From an uncultured Candidatus Saccharibacteria bacterium (GTDB lineage Bacteria > Patescibacteria > Saccharimonadia > Saccharimonadales > UBA1547): 18,235 nucleotides of DNA. Under the pieces are notes generated by a model. The model was not told the origin of the DNA, searched no databases, and saw only the letters and a list, made by a program, of their open reading frames with translations. Each line of letters opens with the position of its first letter. The stretch's first letter is position 1. A program made the position numbers and the translations under genes. The stretch spans positions 1-18,235 of the forward strand of contig CAMLKA010000019.1 in assembly GCA_946480535.1 (NCBI GenBank), written 5' to 3'. Below are positions 3,152-16,811 of the stretch, one piece after another.

Positions 3152-3675
3152 TATTGGTTTTTACTCGTAATTACGTGGACGGTACTATCTGATTCTTGGT
3201 AATAATAAATATTAAAACGACGGCAGTCACCATCCGTTAAAGGGTCGGTGCAGAGGGCGCCACTTGTAGTGAGGGGTTGGTAGACATATATGTCGTTTGA
3301 GGTTGAAGGGGCAGGGTCGATACTCGCTGGATCGGTAAGGGTATTTGTTGCCGCTTGGAGGCTAATGGTGTCAGGCTCGGCTTTACCGGGCGCGTAAACG
3401 TTTTTCAGATCAAGATCGGGAAGGTATTGCTTAATTTGAGCAGTCGTAAGATAGGTGGTGCCAGGATATGAACCTCCACTCTTCACAATATTAGGATCCT
3501 GATTGCGATAGTAGGATTCGAGGTGAAGTGCGAGGCTTTCGGCGTCGCCTTTTCGTTCGGAATCGCGGGCATTTGCCTGGGTTGAATTGAGGTTAACGAC
3601 GGCCAAAGTTAAGAGAATACCCATGATGGTAATAATTATCAAAAGCTCTACCACCGTGAACCCACGCCGTATCAT
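3151..3675 (-). CDS. Type IV prepilin-like protein (PulG/PilE-like), first gene of the pilin operon
   Basis: The protein has 174 residues. It starts MIRRG/FTVVELLIIITIMGILLTL: a very short basic leader, Gly5 cleavage site, Glu at mature position 5 and the long N-terminal helix of type IV pilins and type II pseudopilins. The remainder (ARDSERKGDAESLALHLESYY) has the helical linker typical of PulG-like proteins, then a small beta domain with two Cys (CTDPLTDGDC) that could form a loop disulfide. It would be processed by a prepilin peptidase and assembled at the cytoplasmic membrane. The gene leads the operon, with its promoter directly upstream. Whether it is the major pilin cannot be told from sequence. 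Confidence 0.88.
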   Translation of the reverse strand: MIRRGFTVVELLIIITIMGILLTLAVVNLNSTQANARDSERKGDAESLALHLESYYRNQDPNIVKSGGSYPGTTYLTTAQIKQYLPDLDLKNVYAPGKAEPDTISLQAATNTLTDPASIDPAPSTSNDIYVYQPLTTSGALCTDPLTDGDCRRFNIYYYQESDSTVHVITSKNQ

Positions 3676-3725: not shown

Positions 3726-4754
3726 TTATTGAGCGGGAATTTCGAGCGGTTCTTGTTCGATGATGATTTGGAACATATCGCGCACTTTACCAATGATTTC
3801 GTCGCGGGCGGCTGCAAGATCGGCGTAACTCTGAGCCGATTCATTAATAAGAACGAGGGCGTTCTTGTCGTTTACGTGCATGCCATGGAGTGTTTGGCCT
3901 TTGAGGCCTGTCTTTTCAATCAGCCAACCGGTGTATACCTTGTAGGTGTCGTTGCCCATTTCATAGGCCTTCATATCAGGATATTGCGCCATAAGACCTT
4001 CCATTTTCCATGATTCAACGATGGCATTTTTGAAGAATGACCCAGCGCTTGGACGCACGGCAGGGTCGGGGAGTTTATCGGTGCGAATGGCGACGACGGC
4101 GTCACGAACAGTTTGCTGGGTGAAAACCGAAATAGCGTGTTCGTCAAAGTAGCTCTGGAGCGAATCGTAAAATGGTGGGGCGGGAAGTGATTTCGAGAGC
4201 TTGAGGGTAATACTTGTGATGATATAACGCCCCTGTTGGCTGCCGCGGAAAATGCTGTGACGGTACGTAAATTCACACTCGGCGTTCTGCAGCGTTACCA
4301 TGCTGTGCGATTGCGTGTCGTAGGCCTCAAGCGACACGAGTGTCTCGGAAATCTCTTGTCCGTACGCGCCGACATTTTGCACAGGAGCAGCCCCGGCAGT
4401 TCCAGGAATGGCTGACATGGCCTCAATACCGCTGAGGCGCATATCGACAGTCCGCTTGACCACTTCGTCCCAAATTTCACCTGCACCAATTTTGATTGTT
4501 GTCGAGTTAAGGTCGTCGGCAATTGTCTCAAAGCCAGGAATTTTAATACGAAGCACAAGGCCCTTGTAGCCTTCGTCGTGGGCAATAACGTTGCTTCCAC
4601 CTCCAAGAACGAAGACCGGAACATTTTTGGCCTGCGCGTCAGAGTAGAGTTGATGTAACTCTTGTACGGTATGGGCTTCGGCAAAGTATTGCGCCGGGCC
4701 GCCAAGTTTCATTGTTGTCAGACTTTTCAGGGAAATGTTGGTGTGTATATCCAT
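3726..4754 (-). CDS. murB: UDP-N-acetylenolpyruvoylglucosamine reductase MurB
   Basis: This is an FAD enzyme that reduces UDP-GlcNAc-enolpyruvate to UDP-MurNAc with NADPH in cytoplasmic peptidoglycan precursor synthesis. At 342 residues it matches type I (E. coli-like) MurB in length. FAD-binding motifs are visible: TTMKLGG (13-19), GGGSN (51-55) and the PGTAGAAPVQNVGAYG stretch (117-132). The substrate-binding Tyr-Arg lies in FTYRHSIFR (162-170). The catalytic Ser is in AGSFFKN (237-243, Ser239), and the C-terminal acid is probably Glu338 in PLEIP. The start at 4754 is supported by length and by a TATAAT box 11 bases upstream. It is a single gene, transcribed towards the pilin operon but ending before that operon's promoter. 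Confidence 0.97.
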   Translation of the reverse strand: MDIHTNISLKSLTTMKLGGPAQYFAEAHTVQELHQLYSDAQAKNVPVFVLGGGSNVIAHDEGYKGLVLRIKIPGFETIADDLNSTTIKIGAGEIWDEVVKRTVDMRLSGIEAMSAIPGTAGAAPVQNVGAYGQEISETLVSLEAYDTQSHSMVTLQNAECEFTYRHSIFRGSQQGRYIITSITLKLSKSLPAPPFYDSLQSYFDEHAISVFTQQTVRDAVVAIRTDKLPDPAVRPSAGSFFKNAIVESWKMEGLMAQYPDMKAYEMGNDTYKVYTGWLIEKTGLKGQTLHGMHVNDKNALVLINESAQSYADLAAARDEIIGKVRDMFQIIIEQEPLEIPAQ

Positions 4755-4765
4755 AGGTGAACTAA

Positions 4766-4771
4766 ATTATA
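4766..4771 (-). promoter_or_regulatory. -10 box of murB
   Basis: A perfect TATAAT lies on the minus strand, 11 bases before the murB ATG. The predicted leader is only about five bases and there is no Shine-Dalgarno sequence. The -35 region is weak at normal spacing. Confidence 0.5.
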
Positions 4772-4789
4772 GCTTTTTTGAAATTATTA

Positions 4790-4798
4790 TGCTACAAT
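4790..4798 (+). promoter_or_regulatory. Extended -10 promoter, probably for tRNA-Arg
   Basis: TGCTACAAT is an extended -10 element (TGn plus TACAAT) on the plus strand, divergent from murB. A start near 4805 would give a 5' leader of about 60 bases before tRNA-Arg. No good -35 is seen. Confidence 0.4.
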
Positions 4799-4867
4799 TA
4801 CCTCTGTACTTTTGGTATTAGTCATTTGGGTTTGTCCCGGGCGGCTCTGGCAAAAAGACGCGCATGG

Positions 4868-4944
4868 GCACCCGTAGCTCAGTGGATTAGAGCACTGGTC
4901 TTCGGAACCAGGTGTCGCAAGTTCGAATCTTGCCGGGTGTACCA
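4868..4944 (+). tRNA. tRNA-Arg(UCG)
   Basis: The cloverleaf is complete. The acceptor GCACCCG pairs with CGGGTGT (a G-U at the end). The D arm is GCTC/GAGC. The anticodon stem CTGGT/ACCAG carries loop CTTCGGA, giving anticodon TCG. The T arm is GCAAG-TTCGAAT-CTTGC. The discriminator A and the CCA end are encoded. It reads CGA and related Arg codons. Confidence 0.95.
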
Positions 4945-4946
4945 AG

Positions 4947-4975
4947 TTGATTTATTCTAACATTTGTGTTATAAT
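4947..4975 (+). promoter_or_regulatory. Promoter of tRNA-Lys
   Basis: TTGATT (4947-4952), a 17-base spacer and TATAAT (4970-4975), with TGT directly before the -10 (extended -10). The predicted start is about five bases before the tRNA. It lies in the short gap after tRNA-Arg, so tRNA-Lys can be transcribed on its own. Confidence 0.75.
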
Positions 4976-4986
4976 AAATAACATAT

Positions 4987-5063
4987 GGGTCAGTAGCTCA
5001 GCTGGTTAGAGCGTCTGCCTCTTAAGCAGAATGTCGTGGGTTCAAGTCCCACCTGACCCTCCA
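4987..5063 (+). tRNA. tRNA-Lys(CUU)
   Basis: The cloverleaf is complete. The acceptor GGGTCAG pairs with CTGACCC. The D arm is GCTC/GAGC. The anticodon stem TCTGC/GCAGA has loop CTCTTAA, giving anticodon CTT. The T arm is GTGGG-TTCAAGT-CCCAC. The CCA is encoded. It reads AAG. Confidence 0.96.
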
Positions 5064-5098
5064 AAGAAAAACGTCCTCATTCGAGGACGTTTTTCTTT
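5063..5098. terminator. Bidirectional intrinsic terminator
   Basis: A perfect 16-bp inverted repeat (core ACGTCCTC / GAGGACGT) has an ATTC loop and is flanked by A-rich and T-rich arms, so it gives a T tract on either strand. It begins on the last base of tRNA-Lys and serves both that tRNA and the convergent membrane-protein gene that ends at 5110. Confidence 0.9.
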
Positions 5099-5109
5099 GT
5101 ATTGCAGAT

Positions 5110-5610
5110 TTAACTTGCCGCTGGTTTCTTGTGCGTTTCAGGCGCAAGGCTCGGCGCACCGGCTGCATCATTCCACGGAGATTTATCAACCGCCATAAGG
5201 ATAAACCAGATTGGTGAGAGGAAGATGGCGAGCAGAACATACGCGCCGTCTTTACCAAGCTTCAGGCCGATGTTGTACATAGCAATATACATAAATACCG
5301 CTGAGACGATATTTACGAATGGCAAAATTGTAAGTACAGCCCAGAAACCTTGTTGGCCACCGATTTCGAGCATTTTCCAGTTGTTATAAAATGGCACCCA
5401 TGCAATCCATGGTTTTACACCAGCCTTTTTAAAGATTTGCATAAGACAAATCGCCATGACCACGTAGATGGCCACGAAGAAAATGAAGAAAACGAAGCTA
5501 AACATGAGCGCCGCCGCTGCCGCAACAGCCGGGTCCCCTTCGTAGGTGGTTGAATAAAGCATCGCTTCATCGTACGTCTCGTATTGTGCAAATGTTGAAA
5601 GAATTCCCAT
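5110..5610 (-). CDS. DUF5684-like integral membrane protein
   Basis: The protein has 166 residues, starting at the ATG at 5610 (MGILSTFAQY). That codon has a Shine-Dalgarno GGAGA a few bases upstream; an open-frame extension upstream to 5805 lies antisense to folD and has no support. An N-terminal helix covers about 32-57. The signature segment follows: 'FKKAGVKPWIAWVPFYNNWKML' (written here as a pattern; Trp, Pro and Tyr-Asn are the key residues), a helix at 87-114, and 'LGKDGAYVLLAIFLSPIWFILMA' to about 140. This matches the DUF5684/'signal-peptidase-like' small membrane proteins common in Patescibacteria. The function is unknown. The tail is hydrophilic (APETHKKPAAS). Family placement is from memory of the pattern, not a search. 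Confidence 0.85.
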   Translation of the reverse strand: MGILSTFAQYETYDEAMLYSTTYEGDPAVAAAAALMFSFVFFIFFVAIYVVMAICLMQIFKKAGVKPWIAWVPFYNNWKMLEIGGQQGFWAVLTILPFVNIVSAVFMYIAMYNIGLKLGKDGAYVLLAIFLSPIWFILMAVDKSPWNDAAGAPSLAPETHKKPAAS

Positions 5611-5632
5611 ATGTGTTCTCCTTAGTGGTTTT

Positions 5633-5641
5633 ATTGTAGCA
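5633..5641 (-). promoter_or_regulatory. Extended -10 of the DUF5684-like gene
   Basis: TGCTACAAT lies on the minus strand, 22 bases before the ATG at 5610, giving a short leader that contains the GGAGA ribosome-binding site. The gap to the divergent folD is only 53 bases. Confidence 0.5.
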
Positions 5642-5663
5642 CGCATTTTGTTAGGCTTAGAGT

Positions 5664-6482
5664 ATGAAGATTCTTGATGGACGTGAACTGGCCGATTATG
5701 TAAAAGAGCGTCAAGCAAAACAGGTGAGGGCACTTCGCCAAGCCTGGAATACCTTTCCGAAGCTTGCAATCGTGGTTGCAAATGATAGCCAGGTGATTGA
5801 TACATTTGTTCGCCTTAAACAGGCATACGGTGAAGATGTCTTAATTGACGTCGACGTCTATAAGGTAGACCAAGCGGAAGTGCGGACAACAATTGAGCGA
5901 CTGAATGACGACGAAACTGTTCACGGTATTATCTTGCAACTTCCATTGTCTGATCCATCGGAAACAGATGCACTTGTGGCACGTATTAGCCCGCAAAAAG
6001 ATGTTGATGGGCTTGGCCCGAACGCCGAGTACACTTCAGCAACTGCAACGGCAATTGACTGGCTTGTTGCTGGGTATAACGTCACACTTCGTGATAGGAA
6101 AATCGCTATCGTTGGACGAGGGCGCTTAGTGGGCGCTCCACTTGCGCAGCTCTGGCTTGGCGCCGGGCTTGATGTTACAACCTACGATGATACGACGACC
6201 GATCTTCAAGGGTCTCTTCGCAGCGCAGATATTATTGTCTCTGCAACCGGTGTGCCAGGGCTTATCACCTCTTCTATGGTGGCGCCCGGCAAGGTGGTGG
6301 TAGACGCGGGAACGGCCTCTGAAAACGGCGTCATTGTTGGCGATGTCGCTGCTGATGTTCGCGATCGCCAAGACCTTACAATCACTCCACAAAAGGGAGG
6401 TGTTGGTCCGCTCACTATCGCTGCATTGTTCGATAATGTAATGTTAGCCGCTCGAAAAACGGTTCCACCGGAAGAGGCTTAG
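5664..6482 (+). CDS. folD: Bifunctional FolD-type methylenetetrahydrofolate dehydrogenase/cyclohydrolase (divergent)
   Basis: This cytoplasmic one-carbon enzyme oxidises 5,10-methylene-THF to methenyl-THF (NADP) and hydrolyses it to 10-formyl-THF. At 272 residues it is slightly short for the family. Landmarks are the catalytic Lys in FVRLK (48-52, Lys52), QLPL (92-95), KDVDG (112-116, conserved Asp), a Rossmann loop GRGRLVG (151-157, usually GRS..VG) and GGVGPLT (245-251). Oddities: the Tyr normally four residues before the catalytic Lys is Phe48, and the usual 'PCTP' after KDVDG is replaced by SATATA. In characterised FolD enzymes Lys is needed for cyclohydrolase and the Tyr assists, so activity may be altered. 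No clear Shine-Dalgarno precedes the ATG, and TAGGCT six bases upstream may be a -10 of a leaderless mRNA. Confidence 0.93.
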   Translation: MKILDGRELADYVKERQAKQVRALRQAWNTFPKLAIVVANDSQVIDTFVRLKQAYGEDVLIDVDVYKVDQAEVRTTIERLNDDETVHGIILQLPLSDPSETDALVARISPQKDVDGLGPNAEYTSATATAIDWLVAGYNVTLRDRKIAIVGRGRLVGAPLAQLWLGAGLDVTTYDDTTTDLQGSLRSADIIVSATGVPGLITSSMVAPGKVVVDAGTASENGVIVGDVAADVRDRQDLTITPQKGGVGPLTIAALFDNVMLAARKTVPPEEA

Positions 6483-6485
6483 TAC

Positions 6486-6854
6486 TTAAGCGCCGAGTGC
6501 GTCTTTGACGCGCTGTACCACTTGGCGAGGGGTGAGTTCGGCTTTTACGATATAGCCATGAATGCCGAGGCTGCGAATACCTTTTGGTGCTTCTTCTTCG
6601 CCGAGGTTAGTAAGAATAATAACAGGGATATCTTTACCCCAAGGTTGTTTGCGAATTTCAGCAAGCGCTTCGTCGCCGCCCATTTCAGGCATTTGAAGGT
6701 CGAGCAAAAGGATGTCTGGAGAGAAGTGCTCGACAAGCGCGACGCCTTTTTTGCCATTATCTGCAAGCTGCACGTCAAAGCCATCGGCTTCAAACTTCAT
6801 GCGGTACATTTGGCTAATTACTGGGTCGTCTTCAACAATTGCAATCTTCGTCAT
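6486..6854 (-). CDS. Stand-alone CheY-like response regulator receiver
   Basis: The protein has 122 residues and is a receiver domain only, with no output domain. The acidic pocket is Glu8-Asp9-Asp10, the phospho-acceptor is Asp52 (LLLDLQMPEMGG), the signalling Thr is Thr82 (ILTN) and the conserved Lys is Lys104 (YIVKAEL). All are intact, so phosphorylation is likely. It lies head-to-head with the histidine kinase gene 43 bases away, the natural partner. Without a DNA-binding domain it must act by protein contact, for example on motility, pilus or a phosphorelay. It ends four bases from folD, tail to tail. Confidence 0.95.
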   Translation of the reverse strand: MTKIAIVEDDPVISQMYRMKFEADGFDVQLADNGKKGVALVEHFSPDILLLDLQMPEMGGDEALAEIRKQPWGKDIPVIILTNLGEEEAPKGIRSLGIHGYIVKAELTPRQVVQRVKDALGA

Positions 6855-9241: not shown

Positions 9242-10987
9242 TTATTGGTTGAGGGCACGGCGGCTTGCGATGTAGTAAGCAGCGCTTGCGATAAGTGCAC
9301 CAAGACCAACAATGGCAACAATGCTTTCACCTGCACCAGTCTTTGGAAGTTCTGGTGGGGTTACTGGTGTTTCTTCACACTTGCTAAGGTCGGTAGAGTA
9401 CTTAGTTTCGTCGAAGTCTTTTTCGTCGATAGTAACGATTTGCTTAGTAGTAAGGTCACACACCTTAATCTTTGAAGGTGGAGTTTCCTTACAGTCAGCA
9501 AGGTTCTTTGAGTACTTGCTTGAGTCAAAGTCTTTCTCGTCAATAGTAACGATCTTCTTTGTTGAGAGTTCACAAACCTTGATCTTCTTGCTTTCTTCCT
9601 TCACTTCGAATGAGCCCTTACATGCTTCGCTTGTAGCAGTCTTGTCTTGGCCGTCAACAGTGAAGGTAACGGTAGCTTGAACTGTGTACTTGCCAGCAGT
9701 TGCTTGGGTGTAGTCGAGTGAGGTTGAAGTTGAAGTCTTGGTATCAACAGTTGCACCAGCTGCGTTCTTGATAACGTAGGTTACGCTCTTGAACGTTGCG
9801 TTTTGAGCAGTGTAGCTGGTGTTGAAGCGGAACGTAGTACGGTTCACTTGGGTAATACCGAGTGCCTTACATGCGTACTTAACTTCTGGTTGACATTCTT
9901 TTTCAACAGTAACGTTAGCAGTGTCTTCTTTGTAGTAGCCACCGCTTGAGGTGTGAACCTTGTTGATGAGCTTAGATGGACCACAAGGAAGCTTGTCCTT
10001 GTCGGCTACCTTAGCGCTAAAGATTACCCATGCATTACCGTTTGGTGCGTATGAGCCGATGTTGATACCGGTCTTGGTAACACCGTTGTCAGAAACTGGG
10101 GCACCTGATGGGTGCTTTGAGTTACCAAGTACGGTGCTGTCGTTTACGTAGGTCATGTTAGCAGGAAGAATGTCGCGAATCATGACGTTGTCTTGTTGAA
10201 CAGTACCGACGTTGCGGTATTCAAGAAGGTAGTCAACGGTTTCGCCTGGTTGCGCCTTGTAGTCGTCAACCCATTTGTTCTCGCCGTGCTTACTTACGAG
10301 CTTGTTTGTAGTGAAGTTAATAACTCCGCCAACTTGTGCTTTAACCTTAAAGCTTACGTAGCCAGAGTACTTGAAACATCCAGGGATTTTACCGTCGAGC
10401 TTGTCATAACCGACAAGAGCACCGGCGCTGGTAACGATACCATCACTCAGCTTTGCACCTGTTTGCTTGAATACGTTGTTGTAAAGAACAGCTGAGCCAG
10501 GAACGTAGGTAAGGTTGAAGTCTTGGCTGCTCTTGAAAATTGCCTGGTCCCAGATCTTGTTTGGGTTGGCGTTGCTTGAGGTAACAAATCCGTCAATCTG
10601 GATTTGCTTACCAGTCGTGTTAGGGACATTAGCCATAACACGAGTGTTTTCCGCAACGAGGTTTAGGTCGTCGCGGGCGTTGTTGTGTACGTACATCTGC
10701 ACAAGGTATTCCTTGTTAGATTCTACGGTAATCTCGTCCTTCCAGTTGCCTGGGCCCGTGTCAGCAGCGTCCTTAATACGCACAAAGTTGCGTTCGTCGC
10801 CGTAGTTCGGGTTGTCCGTGATTGAGTTAAAGGTGTTATATGTCGCAGGGTTGTTAACCGTAAAGGTTGGGCGGTCTGGACCCCAAGCCAATACAGCAGC
10901 AGGCACGATGATTGCAGCAGCAACCATGAGCATAGCAGCAGTAAAGCGCTTTGGAGCACGACGGATGAGTGAAGTGAGCTTACTCAT
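9242..10987 (-). CDS. LPKTG-anchored surface protein with DUF11-like and Cys-paired repeats
   Basis: The protein has 581 residues, starting at the ATG at 10987. That codon has GGAG six bases upstream; an ATG at 10999 would place this ribosome-binding site inside the gene. A signal peptide covers 1-34 (RRAPKRF, hydrophobic core, VLA/W). A DUF11-type 'conserved repeat' beta domain lies near 230-365 (QPGETVDYLLEYRNVG, MIRDILPANMTYV). An Ig/PKD-like segment follows at 385-460 (KSVTYVIKNAAGATV). Then come two 35-40-residue repeats with 'KVC-L-TK-IVTIDEKDFD--KYS' and a Cys at each end. LPKTG (547-551), a hydrophobic helix and a basic tail (SRRALNQ) form a sortase-type anchor. It is probably displayed on the cell wall; repeats of this style are frequent in Saccharibacteria surface proteins (from memory). 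Its ligand is unknown. Confidence 0.9.
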   Translation of the reverse strand: MSKLTSLIRRAPKRFTAAMLMVAAAIIVPAAVLAWGPDRPTFTVNNPATYNTFNSITDNPNYGDERNFVRIKDAADTGPGNWKDEITVESNKEYLVQMYVHNNARDDLNLVAENTRVMANVPNTTGKQIQIDGFVTSSNANPNKIWDQAIFKSSQDFNLTYVPGSAVLYNNVFKQTGAKLSDGIVTSAGALVGYDKLDGKIPGCFKYSGYVSFKVKAQVGGVINFTTNKLVSKHGENKWVDDYKAQPGETVDYLLEYRNVGTVQQDNVMIRDILPANMTYVNDSTVLGNSKHPSGAPVSDNGVTKTGINIGSYAPNGNAWVIFSAKVADKDKLPCGPSKLINKVHTSSGGYYKEDTANVTVEKECQPEVKYACKALGITQVNRTTFRFNTSYTAQNATFKSVTYVIKNAAGATVDTKTSTSTSLDYTQATAGKYTVQATVTFTVDGQDKTATSEACKGSFEVKEESKKIKVCELSTKKIVTIDEKDFDSSKYSKNLADCKETPPSKIKVCDLTTKQIVTIDEKDFDETKYSTDLSKCEETPVTPPELPKTGAGESIVAIVGLGALIASAAYYIASRRALNQ

Positions 10988-11204
10988 AATTCTCTCCATT
11001 TCTTGATTCGTCTCGCAGATGGAATCAATTAATAAATATATTTATCGCACTAGTATGTGAAACATTGTCGCCAGGTTGTTAAAGGTTATCAAATCAGATC
11101 ATTACACAAGTGCACGTCGAGTGACGAAAGGTGACTCACGAGGAGCCAGACTCGACATACAAGTGTAAAACACTAATTTGGAATCTAACTCCTCGGATTG
11201 TTTG
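10988..11204. other. AT-rich intergenic region upstream of the surface-protein gene
   Basis: No gene is seen. On the minus strand TTTCAC-16-TATATT (about 11039-11066) is a weak candidate promoter, overlapping the palindrome ATAAATATATTTAT (11032-11045). TTGATA-17-GACAAT (11068-11091) is an alternative. The segment 11085-11119 is copy L of the repeat described separately. Further right an inverted repeat GTCGAGT / ACTCGAC (11116-11122, 11150-11156) encloses GTGACTCAC. Base composition changes to GC-rich just after 11204. Confidence 0.5.
11085..11119 (+). repeat. Intergenic repeat, copy L
   Basis: The first 22 bases match copy R (13266-13245, opposite strand) at 20 of 22 positions, with the shared core TCAGATCATTACA. 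After a 3-base gap, TGCAYGTC is also shared. On the far side, CCTGGCG (minus strand, about 11067-11073) also recurs in register beside R, so the similarity covers about 75 bp in total. The two copies form an inverted repeat around the minus-strand lipoprotein operon. Confidence 0.75.
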
Positions 11205-11221
11205 CTATGGAAAAGGCCCAG

Positions 11222-11258
11222 TGTGGGCGTGCCGGTTTTTGAGGCCGGCACGCCCACA
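11222..11258 (-). terminator. Strong hairpin after the lipoprotein gene
   Basis: TGTGGGCGTGCCGG / CCGGCACGCCCACA is a 14-bp perfect stem with a 9-base loop, four bases after the stop codon. On the minus strand only a short T run (CCTTTTCC) follows, so it may act as a terminator or as a 3'-end stabiliser, as is common in high-GC genomes. Confidence 0.7.
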
Positions 11259-11262
11259 TGGA

Positions 11263-12501
11263 TCAGCAGGTCGTCTGCCCGGGGGCGCACGACGTGCTGG
11301 TGCCCGGATCCGACGGGGCCGGGGCCGGCTCGACCGGAGGCGTCACCACGATGGGCGACGGCTCAGGTGCGGGAGCCGGGATGGTACCTCCACCAGGGGC
11401 GGGAACCGGTGCCGGTGCCGGTGCGGGTGCTGCGGGAGGCGGCACGTACGTGGCGGGCGGGTTGGCCGGTTCGCTCGGCTGGTAGTGGTCCGGACGAGCG
11501 GGCAGCACGTTGGGCATCTGCTGTGTGGGCAGACTTCCCGTACGAGAAGGATCCTCTGCAGGATTCTTCCCGCCGGGGCCCTCGGGTGTGTCCGGGGTGT
11601 CCGGGGTCACCGGCGGCGGGGGCGGCGGCTTGTGGAAGCCGGCCGTCGGGTTGGCGCAACCGGGGCGGTGGGCCACGACGGGCTTATCCGCTTCCGGGGT
11701 GTTCGGGTCGACCGGGTTGCCAGCGGCATCGAAGTTGGCTCGGGTCACCTTGCAGGTGGCCGAGTCGACAAAGAACCACTGGGCGTCGCCAGCCTTGGTC
11801 GGGGTGTTCCCGACCGCGACCTGAACGTCGCCGTTGAGACCGGTGTTGCCGGCCACCTCTGCGTCGACGGTGATCTGGATTGCTTCCCAGTTCTCCGCGT
11901 TCAGCACCACCGCACGATCGAGATCGGGCAGCTGGGCGAGGTGAGCGTTCGCCGCCAGCACGAGGTCGGGGTTGTCGGAATCGAACGACTCCTGCAGCTC
12001 CTCTCGTGAAGTGGCAACCTTCTCATCACCGCGGAATCCCGCGGCGCCCTGACTGTTCAGGACCTCGTTCTCCCAGTCGATCCGCTCCTCACCGACGACG
12101 AACTCGTTGTCGGTGAAGCCCTCTTCGCGCATGTAGGCGAAGGCCGCGTCGGTCCGGCACTGGGCCAGGTCGGCGGCGGCTTGGGCGAGCTCTTCCTCGG
12201 TCGGGCACTCGGTGGCCGCACGCTCTTCGAGCGTGGACACCAGAGTGGCGACCGCTTCGTCGTCCTTCGGGTTCGAGAACCCCATGGACGCCAGCTGGTT
12301 GCGCTTGCCCGAGTTGGGCTTTGCTTCCGCGCTGGGAGCGACCCGAGCCAGGACAGCCTCCGCCTCTTCGCCACAGAGGGCGTTGAGGGCGGCGGCGCTG
12401 GACAGGTTGGGCAGGTCCTCATCCGAGGACACGCTGGCGCACCCCGACATGAGGAGTGCTGCCAGCGCCACTGCGGCGATCGCCGCGTACTTGCGCTTCA
12501 T
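11263..12501 (-). CDS. Proline-rich lipoprotein, unknown family (GC-rich island)
   Basis: The protein has 412 residues. The start is ATG 12501, which has the Shine-Dalgarno AGGAAG; the open frame extends upstream to 13071 but there overlaps the membrane-protein gene in another frame. The N-terminus (MKRKYAAIAAVALAALLMSGC) is a lipoprotein signal with lipobox LMSGC and lipidation Cys21. Residues 30-250 are acidic and helical with scattered Cys (43, 99, 115, 250). After VVAHRPGC (275-282) the C-terminal third is almost all Pro, Ala, Thr and Pro-Ala repeats (KPPPPPPVTPDTP; APAPAPVPAPG) and ends with a Cys pair (SCAPGQTTC). The tail looks like a wall-spanning spacer. Codons end almost always in C or G, unlike the flanking genes. 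It is the second gene of an operon with the 4-TM protein, 11 bases apart. No function can be assigned. Confidence 0.88.
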   Translation of the reverse strand: MKRKYAAIAAVALAALLMSGCASVSSDEDLPNLSSAAALNALCGEEAEAVLARVAPSAEAKPNSGKRNQLASMGFSNPKDDEAVATLVSTLEERAATECPTEEELAQAAADLAQCRTDAAFAYMREEGFTDNEFVVGEERIDWENEVLNSQGAAGFRGDEKVATSREELQESFDSDNPDLVLAANAHLAQLPDLDRAVVLNAENWEAIQITVDAEVAGNTGLNGDVQVAVGNTPTKAGDAQWFFVDSATCKVTRANFDAAGNPVDPNTPEADKPVVAHRPGCANPTAGFHKPPPPPPVTPDTPDTPEGPGGKNPAEDPSRTGSLPTQQMPNVLPARPDHYQPSEPANPPATYVPPPAAPAPAPAPVPAPGGGTIPAPAPEPSPIVVTPPVEPAPAPSDPGTSTSCAPGQTTC

Positions 12502-12512
12502 GGCACTTCCTT

Positions 12513-13019
12513 TCAGTTGCTGGGCGTCTTCCACTTGATGTAGCGGAGCGCCAGGGTGATCACTGCGGCCTGCAGTGCGGTGAAGAGGATCACGAACAGG
12601 AACGGCACGAGGCCGAACACGTTGATGTCCTCGAGGTTGATCCAGCCGGACCAGTACACCACCACTCCCAGAGCGAGAGCGGCGAGTACCAGAACGCCGG
12701 GCAGCCATCCGTACTTGCGGGACAGCTTGTTGGAAATCCAGTAGATGAACGCGAGCAGCGCCAGTGCGCCGATCAGCGTGATGAAGTTGCCGAAGCTTCC
12801 GAACATCGCGTTGATCGTCGTGCCGACGTCGTTCCAGCTGAAGCCGAACTCGCCGTTGAAGCCCGTCGTGACTCCGATGGAGAACGCGAAGACGAGCAGG
12901 ACGAGGTTGAGCGGCAACAGCACGAGGAACGTCGTGATGAGCACGCGCTTGGTGCTGAGGACCAGCGGCACGGCCGGAGCGTTGTGCACGGGACGAGCCG
13001 AGGTGGTGGTGGCGGTCAT
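12513..13019 (-). CDS. Four-helix integral membrane protein, unknown (GC-rich island)
   Basis: The protein has 168 residues. The start is ATG 13019 with GGAG six bases upstream; a TTG two codons earlier is less likely. A polar N-terminus (MTATTTSARPVHNAP) is followed by hydrophobic helices at about 26-48, 76-96, 105-124 and 134-158. The 49-75 loop is rich in Gly, Asn and aromatic residues (GFNGEFGFSWNDVG), and the tail is basic (LRYIKWKTPSN). No motif I recognise. It precedes the lipoprotein gene by 11 bases, and both share codon bias and a promoter about 300 bases upstream, so the two products probably work together in the envelope. Confidence 0.88.
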   Translation of the reverse strand: MTATTTSARPVHNAPAVPLVLSTKRVLITTFLVLLPLNLVLLVFAFSIGVTTGFNGEFGFSWNDVGTTINAMFGSFGNFITLIGALALLAFIYWISNKLSRKYGWLPGVLVLAALALGVVVYWSGWINLEDINVFGLVPFLFVILFTALQAAVITLALRYIKWKTPSN

Positions 13020-13312
13020 GGCCAACTCCTTTGGTTGATTTCCCCTTGGGATTTTCTGCGCGGATGCGCAATTGAATGCGACTACCGCAGCTGCAGCCCA
13101 GGGGGTTGGGAGCAGCGCGTCAATCCGTGTAAGCGAACTGGCGCGCTGCTTCCAATCATGAAAGGGTTGGTGACTTTTCTATAGCGTACAGTGCGCGAAT
13201 TAGCAGTATTTGAAATAGCAAATAAAGCGCATTCAGACATGCACTGTAATGATCTGACTTGTTAACGACCTCCTCACCCTGGCGGGGTCTCTCATACCTC
13301 ACCCGTGAATGA
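13020..13312 (-). promoter_or_regulatory. Long structured 5' leader of the membrane-protein/lipoprotein operon
   Basis: About 290 bases separate the predicted start (near 13313) from the first gene. In the RNA sense the leader holds a short open frame (ATG 13287 to TGA, 20 codons, starting MRDPARV), repeat copy R, an 8-bp closing stem TACAGTGC / GCACTGTA (13248-13241 with 13194-13187) around a smaller ATTTG/CAAAT hairpin, an inverted repeat AGCAGCGCG / CGCGCTGCT (13150-13111), and TGCGC/GCGCA near the ribosome-binding site. This looks like a cis-regulatory RNA; no known class is recognised. Confidence 0.5.
13245..13273 (-). repeat. Intergenic repeat, copy R
   Basis: On the minus strand this reads GGAGGTCGTTAAC followed by AAGTCAGATCATTACA. 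The 13 bases GTTAACGACCTCC (plus strand 13261-13273) recur exactly at 13527-13539 (copy T). The other part matches copy L at 20 of 22 positions. Confidence 0.75.
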
Positions 13313-13319
13313 TGTTCTT

Positions 13320-13348
13320 AATTTATCACAAAACATTGAAAATGTCAA
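13320..13348 (-). promoter_or_regulatory. Promoter of the minus-strand island operon
   Basis: A perfect -35 TTGACA (13348-13343), a 17-base spacer and -10 TAAATT (13325-13320). The palindrome CATTGA-5-TCAATG (13334-13350) overlaps the -35 box and could be an operator. Confidence 0.7.
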
Positions 13349-13469
13349 TGCTTTATACAATATATATAGGAAAAGCACAAGCTTTATCTGTGGTGAGGGG
13401 AAGCTGAGAGAAATCCGTACGCTACATGTGGTGGTTTTTAGGCATATTTTGCACCAAATAACACAATAT
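13349..13469. other. AT-rich spacer between divergent promoters
   Basis: No gene is supported. It contains TATACAATATATATAGG and a GC-richer stretch with AGCTT/AAGCT pairing, but no convincing small RNA. It is the regulatory gap between the two divergent island operons. Confidence 0.4.
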
Positions 13470-13498
13470 TTGACATTTTTTGTCAATAATAGTATATT
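13470..13498 (+). promoter_or_regulatory. Promoter of the plus-strand two-gene operon
   Basis: A perfect -35 TTGACA (13470-13475), a 17-base spacer and -10 TATATT (13493-13498). The palindrome TTGACA-5-TGTCAA (13470-13486) covers the -35 box. It shares TTGACATTTT with the divergent promoter, suggesting the same regulator. Confidence 0.78.
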
Positions 13499-13501
13499 TC
13501 A

Positions 13502-13567
13502 CCCCTAGTGCGAACTGTAAGGTGCAGTTAACGACCTCCGCCCCCCGGAGGACGTTGCCAATAGGGG
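13502..13567 (+). promoter_or_regulatory. Candidate three-way-junction RNA in the 5' leader
   Basis: A closing stem CCCCTA / TAGGGG (13502-13507, 13562-13567) encloses two hairpins: AACTG-7-CAGTT and AACG-A-CCTCCG-5-CGGAGG-A-CGTT. The predicted RNA 5' end (about 13505) falls in the closing stem. A further hairpin GCTCGGA-TGAA-TCCGAGC follows before the start codon at 13611. The element contains repeat copy T. Confidence 0.5.
13527..13539 (+). repeat. Intergenic repeat, copy T
   Basis: GTTAACGACCTCC is identical to 13261-13273 in the same orientation, 266 bases apart. In both copies it forms the 5' leg of a hairpin. ACTGTAA lies just upstream of both. Confidence 0.7.
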
Positions 13568-13610
13568 CAGCACGCTCGGATGAATCCGAGCCGATTAACA
13601 ATGGGGTAGC

Positions 13611-14036
13611 ATGGTATTCACCACGCCGTCATGTAAGGACGTCGTTTGGAACGTGGCCCAGGTGATGACGAGGGTCATCCCGGACCGCGAGCTGACGGAG
13701 TCCTTCTGTACGCCGAAGATCTCGCAGCAGAAGCAGCTCGAGATGCAGGAAGGGCTCGCGGAGTCCGTTCTCGCAGCCAGCGAGAGCGAAGACAACGCCG
13801 ATCTCAAGTACCTCCTCGAGTGCCACAGCAGTGAGCCCGAGGAGCAGCGCAAGCTCGTCGACAACGCGATCCGCCTGCTCGCCCGTGCCTACAGCTCCTG
13901 TTCCTCGGTCTACCCGAGGGACTGGTTCGCCAAGTTCCGGCAGCGCATGCTGTCGGTGAATGGCGAGGAGCCTCCGGCCGGCGAACTCGTGTTCATCGCA
14001 CCTCCCGCGCTCGACGCGAAGGAGGCGGTGGCATGA
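13611..14036 (+). CDS. Unknown acidic helical protein (GC-rich island)
   Basis: The protein has 141 residues, starting ATG 13611 (MVFTTPSCKDVVWNVAQ). The ribosome-binding site is poor (GGGG just upstream), so expression may depend on the structured leader. The body is mostly helical and acidic (QLEMQEGLAES, ASESEDNADLKYLLE, EEQRKLVDNAIRLLARAY) with four Cys (8, 33, 71, 97) and a WFAKFRQRML segment (105-114). No signal peptide or membrane segment is seen, so it is probably cytoplasmic. Codons are strongly C/G-ending. Its stop overlaps the next start (ATGA), so the pair is translationally coupled. I do not recognise the family. Confidence 0.82.
   Translation: MVFTTPSCKDVVWNVAQVMTRVIPDRELTESFCTPKISQQKQLEMQEGLAESVLAASESEDNADLKYLLECHSSEPEEQRKLVDNAIRLLARAYSSCSSVYPRDWFAKFRQRMLSVNGEEPPAGELVFIAPPALDAKEAVA
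14019..14025 (+). promoter_or_regulatory. Perfect Shine-Dalgarno inside the upstream gene
   Basis: AAGGAGG lies seven bases before ATG 14033 and fixes that start. It is stronger than any ribosome-binding site seen in the native genes of this window. Confidence 0.85.
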
Positions 14037-14434
14037 GCATCACGGTCATTCAGCGCGAAGGCAGGATCGAGATCGTTCACGGAAGTGAGCGGAAGCGAAC
14101 CGTCGTCTCGAGGGATCTCGTTCGGCGCATCGTCGACGCGAAGGTGTCGCGGGATGAGTCGGCGAGCAACTTCGCGGATGAGGTCGTCAAGGCGGTCAAG
14201 GCGAGCATCGACAACGATACGAAGCTCAAGCCGCCCAAGCGCTACCATCTGCTCTTCGAGCTGGCCGTCTACGGGCGCGCTGTGCTGAAGATGCATCCGT
14301 CGGCGCTGACGCACATCACGCTGACGTTCGAGCCGGGCGATAGGGACACCTACCGCTCAATCTCAACGATGGTCGGCAAGGAGCGCGACAAGCTGAACAA
14401 GCAGTTCGACGCCCGCCTCGCAAGGACGCGCTGA
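14033..14434 (+). CDS. Unknown small protein (GC-rich island)
   Basis: The protein has 133 residues, starting at ATG 14033 after a perfect AAGGAGG. The N-terminus is beta-like (MSITVIQREGRIEIVHG), the middle is helical (ASNFADEVVKAVKASI), then a basic loop KLKPPKRYH, a mixed segment (LFELAVYGRAVLKMHPSALTHITLTFEPG), and a basic C-terminal helix (KERDKLNKQFDARLARTR). No transmembrane segment or catalytic motif is visible. The overlap with the preceding gene (ATGA) suggests the two proteins form a complex or antidote-like pair, but nothing proves this. The codon bias is like its island neighbours and unlike the flanking chromosome. Confidence 0.85.
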   Translation: MSITVIQREGRIEIVHGSERKRTVVSRDLVRRIVDAKVSRDESASNFADEVVKAVKASIDNDTKLKPPKRYHLLFELAVYGRAVLKMHPSALTHITLTFEPGDRDTYRSISTMVGKERDKLNKQFDARLARTR

Positions 14435-14479
14435 GCAACACCCCCCGCTAAGGAGTCTTCGAACACCTTCTTGGCAACC

Positions 14480-14555
14480 CTCCGTCGGGGCCTGGGCATT
14501 TCGCCTGGGCTCCGACGGGGCACACAACACCTCAGAGGCCCATAGGGGCTTTTTT
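14480..14555 (+). terminator. Double hairpin terminator after the two-gene operon
   Basis: The first hairpin, CCGTCGGGGCCTGGGC / GCCTGGGCTCCGACGG (14482-14518, loop ATTTC), has about 16 bp with three G-U pairs but no T tract. The second is short (AGGCCC-ATA-GGGGCT, one mismatch, 14536-14550) and runs into a T6 tract, as in an intrinsic terminator. Confidence 0.75.
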
Positions 14556-14557
14556 GT

Positions 14558-14585
14558 TTGACTTAATTCATTTAAATGATATAAT
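14558..14585 (+). promoter_or_regulatory. Strong promoter of the 151-residue protein gene
   Basis: TTGACT (14558-14563), a 16-base spacer and TATAAT (14580-14585), with TGA directly before it (extended -10). It follows the preceding terminator immediately. The predicted leader is about 72 bases and includes CTTA-bulge-CCCC-GTA-GGGG-TAAG (14613-14635) and a small stem CGAAA/TTTCG (14650-14664) that runs into the start codon. Confidence 0.8.
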
Positions 14586-14663
14586 AATTTAGCTATACGA
14601 AGAGGACAGATTCCTTATCGGCCCCGTAGGGGTAAGCAATCGAACCTAGCGAAATGAGTTTTC

Positions 14664-15119
14664 GTGCCCCAACAGTCCGTGACTCCCATCCACTCCCGCC
14701 GTCAGGGCACCACCCGCGAGACGAACTTCGATGTTTCGCGCGAGGGTGCCGCACGGGTCGCGCTCCAGATCGAGCGGGCGCCGGACAACATCTGCCGGCT
14801 CCTGTTCCAGGAGTACGGGGGTGACTACGCCACGCGCCGGTCCTCGACCGACCAGCTGTGCCTCGTTCTGACGCGTCGCGGCGTCGTCGACAAGGCAGTC
14901 GTCAAGAACAACACGATCCGTCTCGGCATCGTCAAGGCGGGCTTCAAGGCCGCGGTCGCCGACAAGCGCATCATCGTCATCCACCGCAAGGGGAGTCGCC
15001 TGATGGTCCAGCTGTCGACCAGCGAGTACCAGGCTCAGCTGAACCAGGCTGAGCGGGAGCAACGCGCTCGCAGCCGCCAGCAGTCGGCGCAGCCCCGCAA
15101 GCGAGTCGTCAACGGCTGA
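14664..15119 (+). CDS. Unknown basic protein (GC-rich island)
   Basis: The protein has 151 residues, starting at GTG 14664; an in-frame stop lies just upstream, so no longer start exists (GTG 14679 is the alternative). The ribosome-binding site is weak, and the start codon lies at the end of a small hairpin. The protein is basic. It has a polar N-terminus (HSRRQGTTRETNFDVSREG), a core with helix and strand character (ARVALQIERAPDNICRLLFQEYGG, DKAVVKNNTIRLGIVKAGFKAAV), a beta segment (KRIIVIHRKGSRLMVQ), then a Gln/Arg-rich C-terminal helix (QAEREQRARSRQQSAQPRKR). This charge profile would suit nucleic-acid binding, which is inference only. No family is recognised. Confidence 0.83.
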   Translation: MPQQSVTPIHSRRQGTTRETNFDVSREGAARVALQIERAPDNICRLLFQEYGGDYATRRSSTDQLCLVLTRRGVVDKAVVKNNTIRLGIVKAGFKAAVADKRIIVIHRKGSRLMVQLSTSEYQAQLNQAEREQRARSRQQSAQPRKRVVNG

Positions 15120-15131
15120 GTGGGGTAGGTT

Positions 15132-15178
15132 CGAGTGGGGCGGTGTGCATTGCATGCCGCCCCACACGACTATTTTTT
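15132..15178 (+). terminator. Terminator of the 151-residue protein gene
   Basis: GTGGGGCGG / CCGCCCCAC (15135-15143, 15157-15165), extended inwards by wobble and TGC/GCA pairs to about 14 bp, with a T6 tract at 15173-15178. A typical strong intrinsic terminator. Confidence 0.85.
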
Positions 15179-15185
15179 GTAAAAT

Positions 15186-15219
15186 ACCTCTTAGGCACTA
15201 GCCAAACAGAGGTTTTTTT
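15186..15219 (+). terminator. Second intrinsic terminator before tRNA-Glu
   Basis: An outer stem ACCTCT / AGAGGT, an inner stem GGC-ACTA-GCC and a T7 tract. It insulates the glycolytic segment from the GC-rich island. An extended -10 starts on the last T of the tract. Confidence 0.75.
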
Positions 15220-15227
15220 GTTAAAAT
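15219..15227 (+). promoter_or_regulatory. Extended -10, probable promoter of tRNA-Glu and perhaps pyk
   Basis: TGTTAAAAT overlaps the end of the terminator T tract. The predicted start is near 15234, giving a leader of about 38 bases before tRNA-Glu. No good -35. Confidence 0.45.
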
Positions 15228-15247
15228 AACCCAGGTAAAAAAGAAAA

Positions 15248-15366
15248 ATGCCTTTGATTTGTTCTTTTGATGGCCTCATCGTCTAACGGTTAGGACACCA
15301 GGTTTTCATCCTGGCAATCGGAGTTCGATTCTCCGTGAGGTCACCAATAGAACCGACCAAAGGCAT
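15248..15366 (+). other. Inverted repeat bracketing tRNA-Glu
   Basis: ATGCCTTTG (15248-15256) and CAAAGGCAT (15358-15366) are perfect 9-bp complements on either side of the tRNA, with extra partial pairing inwards (TTC/GAA). The precursor RNA could therefore fold into a stem that holds the tRNA, which might guide processing. Confidence 0.5.
15272..15346 (+). tRNA. tRNA-Glu(UUC)
   Basis: The acceptor GGCCTCA pairs with TGAGGTC. The D arm is GTCT/GGAC. The anticodon stem CCAGG/CCTGG has loop TTTTCAT, giving anticodon TTC. The T arm is GGAG-TTCGATT-CTCC. The CCA end is encoded. It reads GAA and GAG. Confidence 0.95.
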
Positions 15367-15398
15367 ATTTATATTTAAAATGAAGGGCGTTTCTCATC

Positions 15399-16811
15399 AT
15401 GGCTATTATCTTTAAGCGAACAAAAATTCTTGCAACTCTTGGACCTATTACCAGTACTCCGGAGATGATCGAAAATCTTATTAACGCAGGTGTAAACGGC
15501 CTTCGTCTTAACTTTAGTCACGGTGACTACGATGAACGAACCGAGCAGATTCGTTGGATTCGTGAAGCAAGTGCAAAGATTGGCAAGCCAGTTGCAATTC
15601 TTCAAGACCTTCAGGGTCCGAAGATTCGTCTTGGTATGCTCAACGAAAACACTCCCGTAAAGACCGGTGATGAAATTATTCTTGATTATGCCGCAGAGCA
15701 CAACGGCCTTACTTTCCCGGTGCAGTACAACCTCGCTGAAAAGGTAAAGGTTGGTGAGCCAATTTACATTTTTGACGGCAAGGTTCGCACCACTGTTCTT
15801 GAAATTACCTCTGAAACTGCTATCAAGCTTCGTATCGAAAACGACGGTGTACTTATGAGCAAGAAGGGTATTAACCTTCCTGACACCGACTTTGGTGGTG
15901 ACATTCTTACCCCTAAAGACCTTAAAGATATCGAATACGGCCTTGGTCAAGATATCGACTACGTAGCACTGAGCTTCGTACAAAGCGCAGAAGACATTCA
16001 CAACCTTCGCCAAATCCTTGTAGCTGGTGGTTCAAAGGCGCAAATTATCGCTAAGATCGAGACCAAAGCTGCAGTAGAGCCAGCAGTGATGGAAGAAATC
16101 GTGAAGGCGACTGACGGTATTATGGTGGCTCGTGGTGACCTCGCGGTTGAAGCGGGTGCAGAAATCGTTCCAATCGTACAGCGCAAGCTCCTTGCTCTTT
16201 GCCGTAAGCACGGTAAGCTCAGCATTGTTGCGACCCAAATGATGGCGAGTATGGTTGATAACCCAGAGCCAACACGCGCTGAGGTAAGCGACGTTGCAAA
16301 CGCGGTTATCCAAGGTGCCGACACGGTGATGCTTTCAGACGAAACGGCTAACGGTAAGTACCCTCTCGAAACTGTTGCTGCAATGAAAAAGGTGATTCTT
16401 TACACCCAAGACAACGCACCAGTATCTCCAATTCACGACATTAACGCCAAGAATGTTCAACTCGATGCTATTAGTACCGCTGCTGTTACGCTTGCGGAAC
16501 AACTCAAGGTTGATGCAATTATTGCGGAAACGAAGTCTGGCGCAACTGCTGCTACTATTGCTGCGCACCGTCCAAACCTTCCAATCATCAGCGTTACCAG
16601 TGAGCAAAAGGCCGCACAACAACTCGGTCTCAGTTACGCAAACCGTAGCTATGTTCGCCCAGACGCTCCTGAGGCAGGATTCGATCTCTTTAAGGAGCTA
16701 AAGAGCGAAGGATTCTTCGGTGAAGGCCAGGCGAAGGTTATTATCGTCAGTGGTCAACAGCCAGGTGTTATCGGTACAACCGACACCATTAAAGTTCGTG
16801 TACTTGAATAG
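15399..16811 (+). CDS. pyk: Pyruvate kinase
   Basis: It converts phosphoenolpyruvate and ADP to pyruvate and ATP, the last glycolytic step, in the cytoplasm. At 470 residues it has the usual bacterial length. Visible motifs are NFSHG (38-42), DLQGPKIR (70-77), SFVQSAEDI (192-200), the catalytic Lys219 and metal-binding Glu221 in AKIETKAAV, MVARGDLAVE (242-251, metal-binding Asp247), ATQMMASM (278-285) and SDETANGKYPLETV (313-326). The C-terminal regulatory domain (about 350-470) is present. The start ATG 15399 has only a weak GAAGGG upstream. It may be co-transcribed with tRNA-Glu and is followed 54 bases later by pgk. Codon use is that of the native genes. Confidence 0.98.
   Translation: MAIIFKRTKILATLGPITSTPEMIENLINAGVNGLRLNFSHGDYDERTEQIRWIREASAKIGKPVAILQDLQGPKIRLGMLNENTPVKTGDEIILDYAAEHNGLTFPVQYNLAEKVKVGEPIYIFDGKVRTTVLEITSETAIKLRIENDGVLMSKKGINLPDTDFGGDILTPKDLKDIEYGLGQDIDYVALSFVQSAEDIHNLRQILVAGGSKAQIIAKIETKAAVEPAVMEEIVKATDGIMVARGDLAVEAGAEIVPIVQRKLLALCRKHGKLSIVATQMMASMVDNPEPTRAEVSDVANAVIQGADTVMLSDETANGKYPLETVAAMKKVILYTQDNAPVSPIHDINAKNVQLDAISTAAVTLAEQLKVDAIIAETKSGATAATIAAHRPNLPIISVTSEQKAAQQLGLSYANRSYVRPDAPEAGFDLFKELKSEGFFGEGQAKVIIVSGQQPGVIGTTDTIKVRVLE

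Follow-up and report, generated by a model that had tools for sequence, protein, structure and literature searches.

Conserved and mutually complementary noncoding elements frame a hypervariable surface-protein locus in Candidatus Saccharibacteria

We analysed an 18,235-nucleotide stretch of DNA (the window) from contig CAMLKA010000019.1 (assembly GCA_946480535.1) of a Candidatus Saccharibacteria bacterium of the lineage UBA1547, and identified conserved noncoding sequences, complementary to one another, that enclose a hypervariable surface-protein locus. The locus is an island of five GC-rich genes between a gene for an LPXTG-anchored surface protein and the pyruvate kinase gene. Its leftward operon begins with a structured 5' leader, and the conserved core of this leader (element A) recurs in inverted form beyond the last gene of the operon (element B). 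We think it somewhat probable that the island is a resident single-site hypervariable surface locus and that its leftward operon is one of a family of 'clamped' transcription units. Such a unit would run from a promoter through a structured 5' leader, which contains core A, and one or two variable genes to element B at its 3' end.

Complementary elements at the two ends of the operon

The leader occupies 13020..13318 on the minus strand. Core A (13236..13266, minus strand) comprises the hexamer GTTAAC (13261-13266), the core itself (13245-13260) and a third block (13236-13244), and the leader core is almost invariant in 12 genomes. The sequence GTTAAC-AARTCAGATYATTAYA-GTGCATGTC recurs inverted between the stop codon of the surface gene and the LPXTG gene as element B (11078..11118, plus strand), with GTTAAAG at 11078-11084, the core at 11091-11106 and block 3 at 11110-11118. 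Among 61 relatives, 20 match the core pattern, 14 with exactly one forward and one reverse site; a strict pattern is present in 62 of 394 relatives, and a looser core matches 35 of 38 genomes, most of them at one or two sites. The controls gave no match in any of these searches.

The complementarity of A and B shows in the 16 core columns of 46 units, where 735 of 736 positions are standard pairs when A is set against the reverse complement of B, both read on one strand. The search patterns permitted both wobble- and mirror-type differences. Those observed in the core consist of 30 that are compatible with wobble (G.U) pairing, none of the mirror type and one transversion, and the variable columns change together or by wobble. 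Automatic pairing of sites had yielded 47 units, from which a mis-oriented one (L080, 5279) was left out here, although it is counted in the block-3 totals; sites in loci L061, L062, L064, L066 and L068 have no partner on the fetched contig. Block 3 tends to follow in both A and B and reads GTGCATGTC in most units. Its variants likewise appear in both elements (GCGCATGTT in L075, GTGCACGTC in L086 and L113, TATAA in L100, CATCAG in L116, and ACATG in L067, L072, L097, L101, L102 and L107), and for this block the units' own A/B pairs beat 2000 of 2000 permutations.

Predicted duplexes give the same picture. In 54 units (the 46 and eight more found with a relaxed core), own pairs average -39.4 kcal/mol vs -33.4 kcal/mol across loci; for 21 units within six genomes the averages are -39.0 and -33.8 kcal/mol, and in each comparison none of 5000 permutations is as good. 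The duplex of the window itself reaches -44.6 kcal/mol, whereas 500 shuffles of B have a mean of -15.4 and a best value of -28.8 kcal/mol. At the level of sequence, comparison shows that, within a single strand, A and the reverse complement of B are complementary, and that the two elements co-evolve unit by unit. Because the differences are one-sided, they point to one strand pairing with itself, as RNA or single-stranded DNA, rather than to protein sites on duplex DNA.

The leader is predicted to be structured beyond its core. The fold of the window's leader has a z-score of -4.1, with none of 200 shuffles as stable, and that of the related locus L004 has a z-score of -6.2. RNAalifold predicts 54 pairs from eight leaders, 13 of them with changes on both sides, and a strong hairpin at 13108..13153 (minus strand; columns 166-226 of alignment A3) carries compensatory changes. 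For another clade, 16 sequences give a 5' hairpin with 93% pairing, compared with at most 57% when slid. Two further leader alignments, A6 and A7, hold 37 of the 64 A sites and 16, respectively. No leader match above the gathering threshold was found in Rfam 15, whose matches in the window are tRNAs only.

Similar units occur at other places and in arrays. With the looser core, genomes G203, G223 and G166 have 10 sites each, G231 has seven, G175 five and G196 four, and in six genomes such units form arrays with small, mutually unrelated genes. Sixteen small units (0.45-1.0 kb) that lie in other intergenic places, apart from the LPXTG gene, likewise have B at their end, so B goes with the unit and not with the LPXTG gene. 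Their proteins, compared within the fetched loci, are unrelated to one another and to those of the other loci, except for one pair at 31%. Units span 528-3219 nt, encode products of 83-622 amino acids, and in most cases keep their own leader. At five junctions the reverse complement of one unit's B abuts element A of its neighbour, and the spacer between them (17-24 nt) holds one shared GTTAA site. Near the array of G223, a gene at 5576-6247 of L077 encodes a 223-amino-acid protein whose C-terminus is presumably like that of lysozyme-like aggregation-promoting factors.

In the proposed mechanism, A would pair with B in the mRNA and join its 5' and 3' parts, and this pairing would control decay, processing (possibly by RNase III) or translation of the unit. 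The unit-specific sequence would limit cross-pairing between neighbouring units. In the window, some 225 nt separate core A from the first start codon downstream of it, which makes a role in stability or processing likelier than direct masking of the Shine-Dalgarno (SD) sequence. Transcription through B, function and processing are what we infer from these comparisons. More tentatively, and with slightly less confidence than we place in the reading of the locus given above, we propose a class of saccharibacterial cassettes defined by a self-complementary RNA frame and not by a protein, into which fast-changing genes are slotted; among these genes would be that of the mosaic surface protein, expressed from a single fixed site. 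If true, the conserved RNA clamp that closes each unit end to end would represent a new family of RNAs, a natural test system for 5'-3' closure of bacterial mRNAs up to three kilobases long, and an undescribed way to frame and control variable surface genes.

Several observations weigh against the reading as clamped units. Column 3 alone accounts for 25 of the 30 wobble differences, and the 46 units include siblings and represent only 14 distinct core pairs. The aligned parts of block 3 contain seven wobble and three mirror-type differences and 15 transversions. The strict pattern is missing from 332 of the 394 relatives, which incomplete metagenome-assembled genomes and divergence may explain in part, and a number of the A sites in arrays lack a B at up to two mismatches (among them L077, 4041 and 10609; L079, 7206; L080, 7313; L081, 5494). 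It is also assumed that B is transcribed together with A. A weak promoter-like site for the LPXTG gene (9/12; 11064-11092) overlaps B and, if real, would start the LPXTG transcript downstream of B. Finally, for the eight sequences RNAalifold prefers a fold in which the core pairs locally with the leader upstream of it, and this fold would compete with B; one may speculate that this modelled pairing is an alternative state of a switch.

A DNA-level reading accounts for some of the same features. A and B could be the ends of a mobile cassette, with single-stranded DNA folding A onto the reverse complement of B and a recombinase moving or circularising units, any RNA role being secondary; integron cassettes and IS200/IS605-like single-strand transposition are the natural comparisons. 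We consider this unlikely, but the abutment of the reverse complement of B with the next A at five junctions, around the shared GTTAA site, keeps it alive. The presence of units in several intergenic places and in arrays also fits it, and the wobble asymmetry would suit single-stranded DNA too. However, most units retain a leader of their own, the leader hairpins have compensatory changes as expected of RNA, and the main locus is fixed at one site. No gene was found in two places among the fetched loci, and no recombinase was noticed among the array open reading frames (ORFs) that were read, a genome-wide search for one not having been made. It is more doubtful still that A and B are two same-orientation binding sites for one trans-acting factor, with their complementary look a consequence of B's inversion. 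Twelve of the 16 core positions are invariant, which is beyond what pairing alone requires. Yet binding sites would leave the 30-to-0 excess of wobble- over mirror-type differences to be accounted for, and A and B match better within units than across units of the same genome, while the inter-block spacers of B differ.

A resident locus with a replaceable coding part

The GC-richness on which the original prediction was built is borne out gene by gene. GC content is 0.58-0.73 at about 11.25-13.25 kb and 13.5-15.25 kb and 0.43-0.55 elsewhere, edge-straddling intervals excepted. The GC content at third codon positions (GC3) of the five island genes is 0.82, 0.91, 0.86, 0.86 and 0.88, whereas the remaining 12 genes measured in the window have 0.43-0.55 and the genome value is near 0.47. 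That prediction had offered host-derived cassettes placed under parasite promoters, a satellite element or an assembly chimera as explanations, and the relatives favour none of these origins.

Relatives were first found by a scan with the window's histidine kinase, which gave five loci, including three from Saccharibacteria and one from Patescibacteria. As far as the contigs reach, they keep the order of pilin genes, murB, folD, response regulator, kinase, a 74-amino-acid gene and the LPXTG gene. In L001, L003 and L004, the pyruvate kinase and phosphoglycerate kinase genes follow after 3.3-4.0 kb of DNA that is likewise GC-rich and has the same layout. Among 61 relatives of the L004 genome, the pyruvate kinase gene could be placed in 54, and the DNA upstream of it was taken from 20 relatives, some cut by contig ends. 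The recurring layout is a minus-strand membrane protein and a surface protein with a Pro-rich tail beside the LPXTG gene, with small orphan genes facing the opposite way; the membrane protein is sometimes missing, as in L014. All 38 units longer than 1.2 kb have the LPXTG gene within the fetched stretch. A recent island should be absent at the orthologous site of relatives, and here it is present between the same neighbours. On this comparative evidence, the island is an old resident locus between the LPXTG/DUF11 gene and pyruvate kinase, not a recent insert.

The GC excess is common to these relatives. GC3 of the surface gene exceeds that of the flanks in 37 of 38 loci (mean +0.23), and the two are correlated (r=0.67, slope 1.28); the window enters this comparison with a longer shadow frame of GC3 0.69, the true gene having 0.82. 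L078, L083, L085 and L091 show little or no excess, whereas L067 and L094 have equally low flank GC3 and yet a large excess, so that composition alone does not settle its cause. The pattern is more in keeping with a persistent local GC bias than with a single import; as to its cause, one may guess at biased gene conversion, the locus being a recombining one, or at selection on the mRNA. The stretch between the second divergent gene and the promoter of the third (14434-14557) is also GC-rich, with hairpins that include a terminator-like site (14534-14553), and GC richness is thus not confined to codons.

Recent acquisition of a high-GC element, be it host-derived cassettes, a satellite, or a plasmid or phage module, is already largely contradicted, and we regard it as very improbable. 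The contrast between the island's GC3 and that of the genome would suit it, as would the orphan proteins and the exchange of coding alleles described below. Against it stand the same locus in distant relatives, and a GC excess that is nearly universal and tracks the flanks. Searches with the proteins found no relative of the lipoprotein in phages or plasmids, none of the second divergent protein (B2) in plasmids, and none of B2, the third divergent protein (C), the lipoprotein or the membrane protein in viral contigs, the first divergent protein (B1) not being among the queries. No actinobacterial relative of the lipoprotein appeared among the best 7,984 candidates scored. What survives of cassettes under parasite promoters is a variable coding part behind resident promoters; their foreign origin is unsupported. 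An assembly chimera, suggested by sharp composition steps near 11.2 and 15.2 kb, has a negligible probability, because many independent genomes share the layout and site, the junction context, and the conserved noncoding sequence at both ends. An orphan, GC-rich 'island' can thus be an old resident locus.

Between its conserved ends the coding part is hypervariable. In G016 and G017, the flanking matched stretches are 83-90% identical and the leader is conserved, but blastn finds no match in the interval that begins some 120 bases beyond B and stops just short of the first gene's start codon. The surface protein of G016 is 49% identical to that of G012, which the G017 protein matches only in its tail (E 2.7e-4). 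These close relatives have unrelated alleles in conserved flanks, the pattern of a surface-antigen locus. In the same pair, positions 4157-6833 and 8265-9129 of L057 also have no blastn matches, and the island is therefore not the only variable piece there; the latter segment adjoins it on the LPXTG-gene side.

Among 946 pairs of 44 surface proteins, eight share head and tail, 82 the head only and 30 the tail only; low-complexity sequence was masked, and the head-only count may be too high. The window's lipoprotein has a head in common with L063, P0004 and P0005, and a tail in common with P0006, whose head is unrelated. With the caveat of masking, the alleles are modular mosaics, as expected of a surface-antigen locus. 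The comparisons show that coding parts have been replaced between the conserved leader and the 3' flank and that head and tail modules have been reshuffled. Allele exchange would run by homologous recombination in the conserved flanks. The main locus would express a diversifying surface protein, and diversifying selection would act on this protein where it faces the host bacterium, phages or competitors; the protein, presumably exposed at the surface, has a lipobox recognised by eye. The literature searched, which left out most subscription papers, yielded no account of a locus or RNA of this kind from Saccharibacteria, and the portions available of PMC11665869 and PMC10633639 do not mention one. 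Surface variation of epibiotic Saccharibacteria towards hosts or phages is likewise not described there, and a single mosaic locus offers a direct handle on it.

Genes, promoters and neighbours of the island

The span 11263-13019 named in the original prediction comprises two genes on the minus strand, one for a surface lipoprotein of 412 amino acids with the lipobox, a head domain and a Pro-rich tail (11263..12501), and one for a membrane protein of about 168 amino acids with four hydrophobic stretches seen by eye (12513..13019, or 13022). Structure prediction gave a partial model of the lipoprotein (residues ~85-290), and counterparts of the membrane protein lie at the same place in L001, L003 and L004. 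A GC-rich hairpin without a T run directly behind it follows the lipoprotein stop codon (11223..11256, minus strand), and similar hairpins occupy the same place in these three loci.

All five proteins stay below the curated cut-offs of Pfam and NCBIfam, the best sub-threshold match being Yip1 for the membrane protein (E 0.0013), and PHROGs gave nothing better than E 0.099. Among 5.8 billion proteins, the relatives of B2 are its own cluster only. The view that the proteins match no family holds to that extent, but the lipoprotein is not a singleton: its relatives include P0002 (90% identical), P0004 (59%), L063 (35%) and L075 (30%), and five protein matches of its search are surface proteins of the same make. 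As predicted, no integrase or transposase is visible, since none was matched among the five proteins in these three databases, where an excision factor of PHROGs appeared below threshold (E 0.43). The original observation is thus partly confirmed: composition, promoters and the lack of a family match were rightly described, and the lipoprotein has relatives. By eye, some surface proteins (L067, L097, L099, L101, L104) end in a hydrophobic stretch and an Arg-rich tail, resembling a sorting signal, and others in a short conserved motif near a final Cys.

On the plus strand lie three small orphan genes: B1 (13611..14036), B2, which overlaps it (14033..14434), and C, which is basic and has its own promoter at 14558 (14664..15119). 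The AT-rich spacers hold near-consensus sigma70-like sites, as had been claimed, at 13470 (plus strand, 11/12), 14558 (plus, 11/12) and 13348 (minus, 10/12); six such sites occur in 10900-15500 vs 1.5 in shuffles. What lies in these AT-rich blocks is conserved DNA of promoters, leaders and putative operators. The operon promoter, TTGACA-17-TAAATT, lies at 13320..13348 on the minus strand. The divergent promoter (13470..13498, plus strand) has its -35 element within a dyad, TTGACA-N5-TGTCAA (13470-13486), which is present without mismatch in 15 of 38 loci. A second dyad, CGCTA-N4-TAGCG, lies at 13420..13433 with two mismatches, and similar ones (0-3 mismatches) stand 50-62 bases before the first in 13 of these 15 loci, a count made without a shuffle control. 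The divergent small genes would probably be controlled at these two conserved dyads.

The 13-mer GTTAACGACCTCC occurs at 13261-13273 and, in the same orientation, at 13527-13539, with 0.01 expected. One copy is the complement of the operon leader and the other lies in the divergent leader before B1, and the two divergent leaders are thus complementary over 13 nt. No copy was seen in the divergent leader of L004. At 3740-6497 of L023, three more GC3-rich small ORFs lie on both strands of the divergent side, which suggests that this side can also grow.

The flanks are conserved. Downstream of the unit is the LPXTG gene (9242..10999, minus strand), whose product exceeds the cut-offs for Pfam DUF11 and the NCBIfam LPXTG anchor. 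On the other side are tRNA-Glu (15272..15346, plus strand), also found between the island and pyruvate kinase in L001, L003 and L004, and pyruvate kinase (15399..16811, plus strand). Farther off, 3-3675 holds three successive pilin-like genes (by eye) that are 55%, 42% and 64% identical to those of L004, compared with 86% for murB.

Comparison with known systems

Integron arrays also consist of unrelated small genes with imperfect inverted repeats, and their attC core boxes read GTTRRRY/RYYYAAC. The junction sequences here, GTTAAC/GTTAAAG as judged by eye, do not fit these boxes; most units have a leader of their own, and no integrase was noticed in the fetched ORFs, although no genome-wide search was made. 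Single-site antigen loci such as ospC-like or capsule loci exchange alleles in conserved flanks and resemble the present locus in these flanks, the unrelated alleles and the mosaic surface protein. In contrast, this one belongs to an epibiotic bacterium, and its frame is a conserved RNA leader with a complementary 3' element. In rRNA processing stems, inverted repeats on either side of kilobases of transcript pair over a long distance; the RNA enclosed here is variable and codes for protein, and cleavage of the clamp would be only conjectural.

Long-distance 5'-3' interactions with nucleotide covariation are described, in the part of the source available, for the hok and aapA type I toxin mRNAs, which have several loci per genome; an anti-SD sequence at the 3' end sequesters the SD sequence, an antisense RNA represses them, and the toxin products include membrane proteins (PMC6733600). 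As far as that account extends, clamped units resemble them in complementary 5' and 3' parts (the pairing here being predicted), multiple loci, covariation, and membrane proteins among the products. They differ in the placement of the core, some 225 nt away from the window's first start codon, where it would not sequester the SD sequence, in their spans of 528-3219 nt, and in their products, which are variable proteins of 83-622 amino acids rather than short hydrophobic toxic peptides. In the available part of a study of icaR mRNA of Staphylococcus aureus, pairing of the 5' and 3' untranslated regions creates an RNase III substrate (PMC3868564). According to these partial accounts, the known 5'-3' pairings (hok, AapA, icaR) act at the SD sequence (PMC6733600, PMC3868564). 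As presented there, the icaR pairing concerns one gene and involves a UCCCCUG motif at the SD sequence, whereas the stem predicted here is longer, is built of three blocks, recurs in many units and lies away from the SD sequence.

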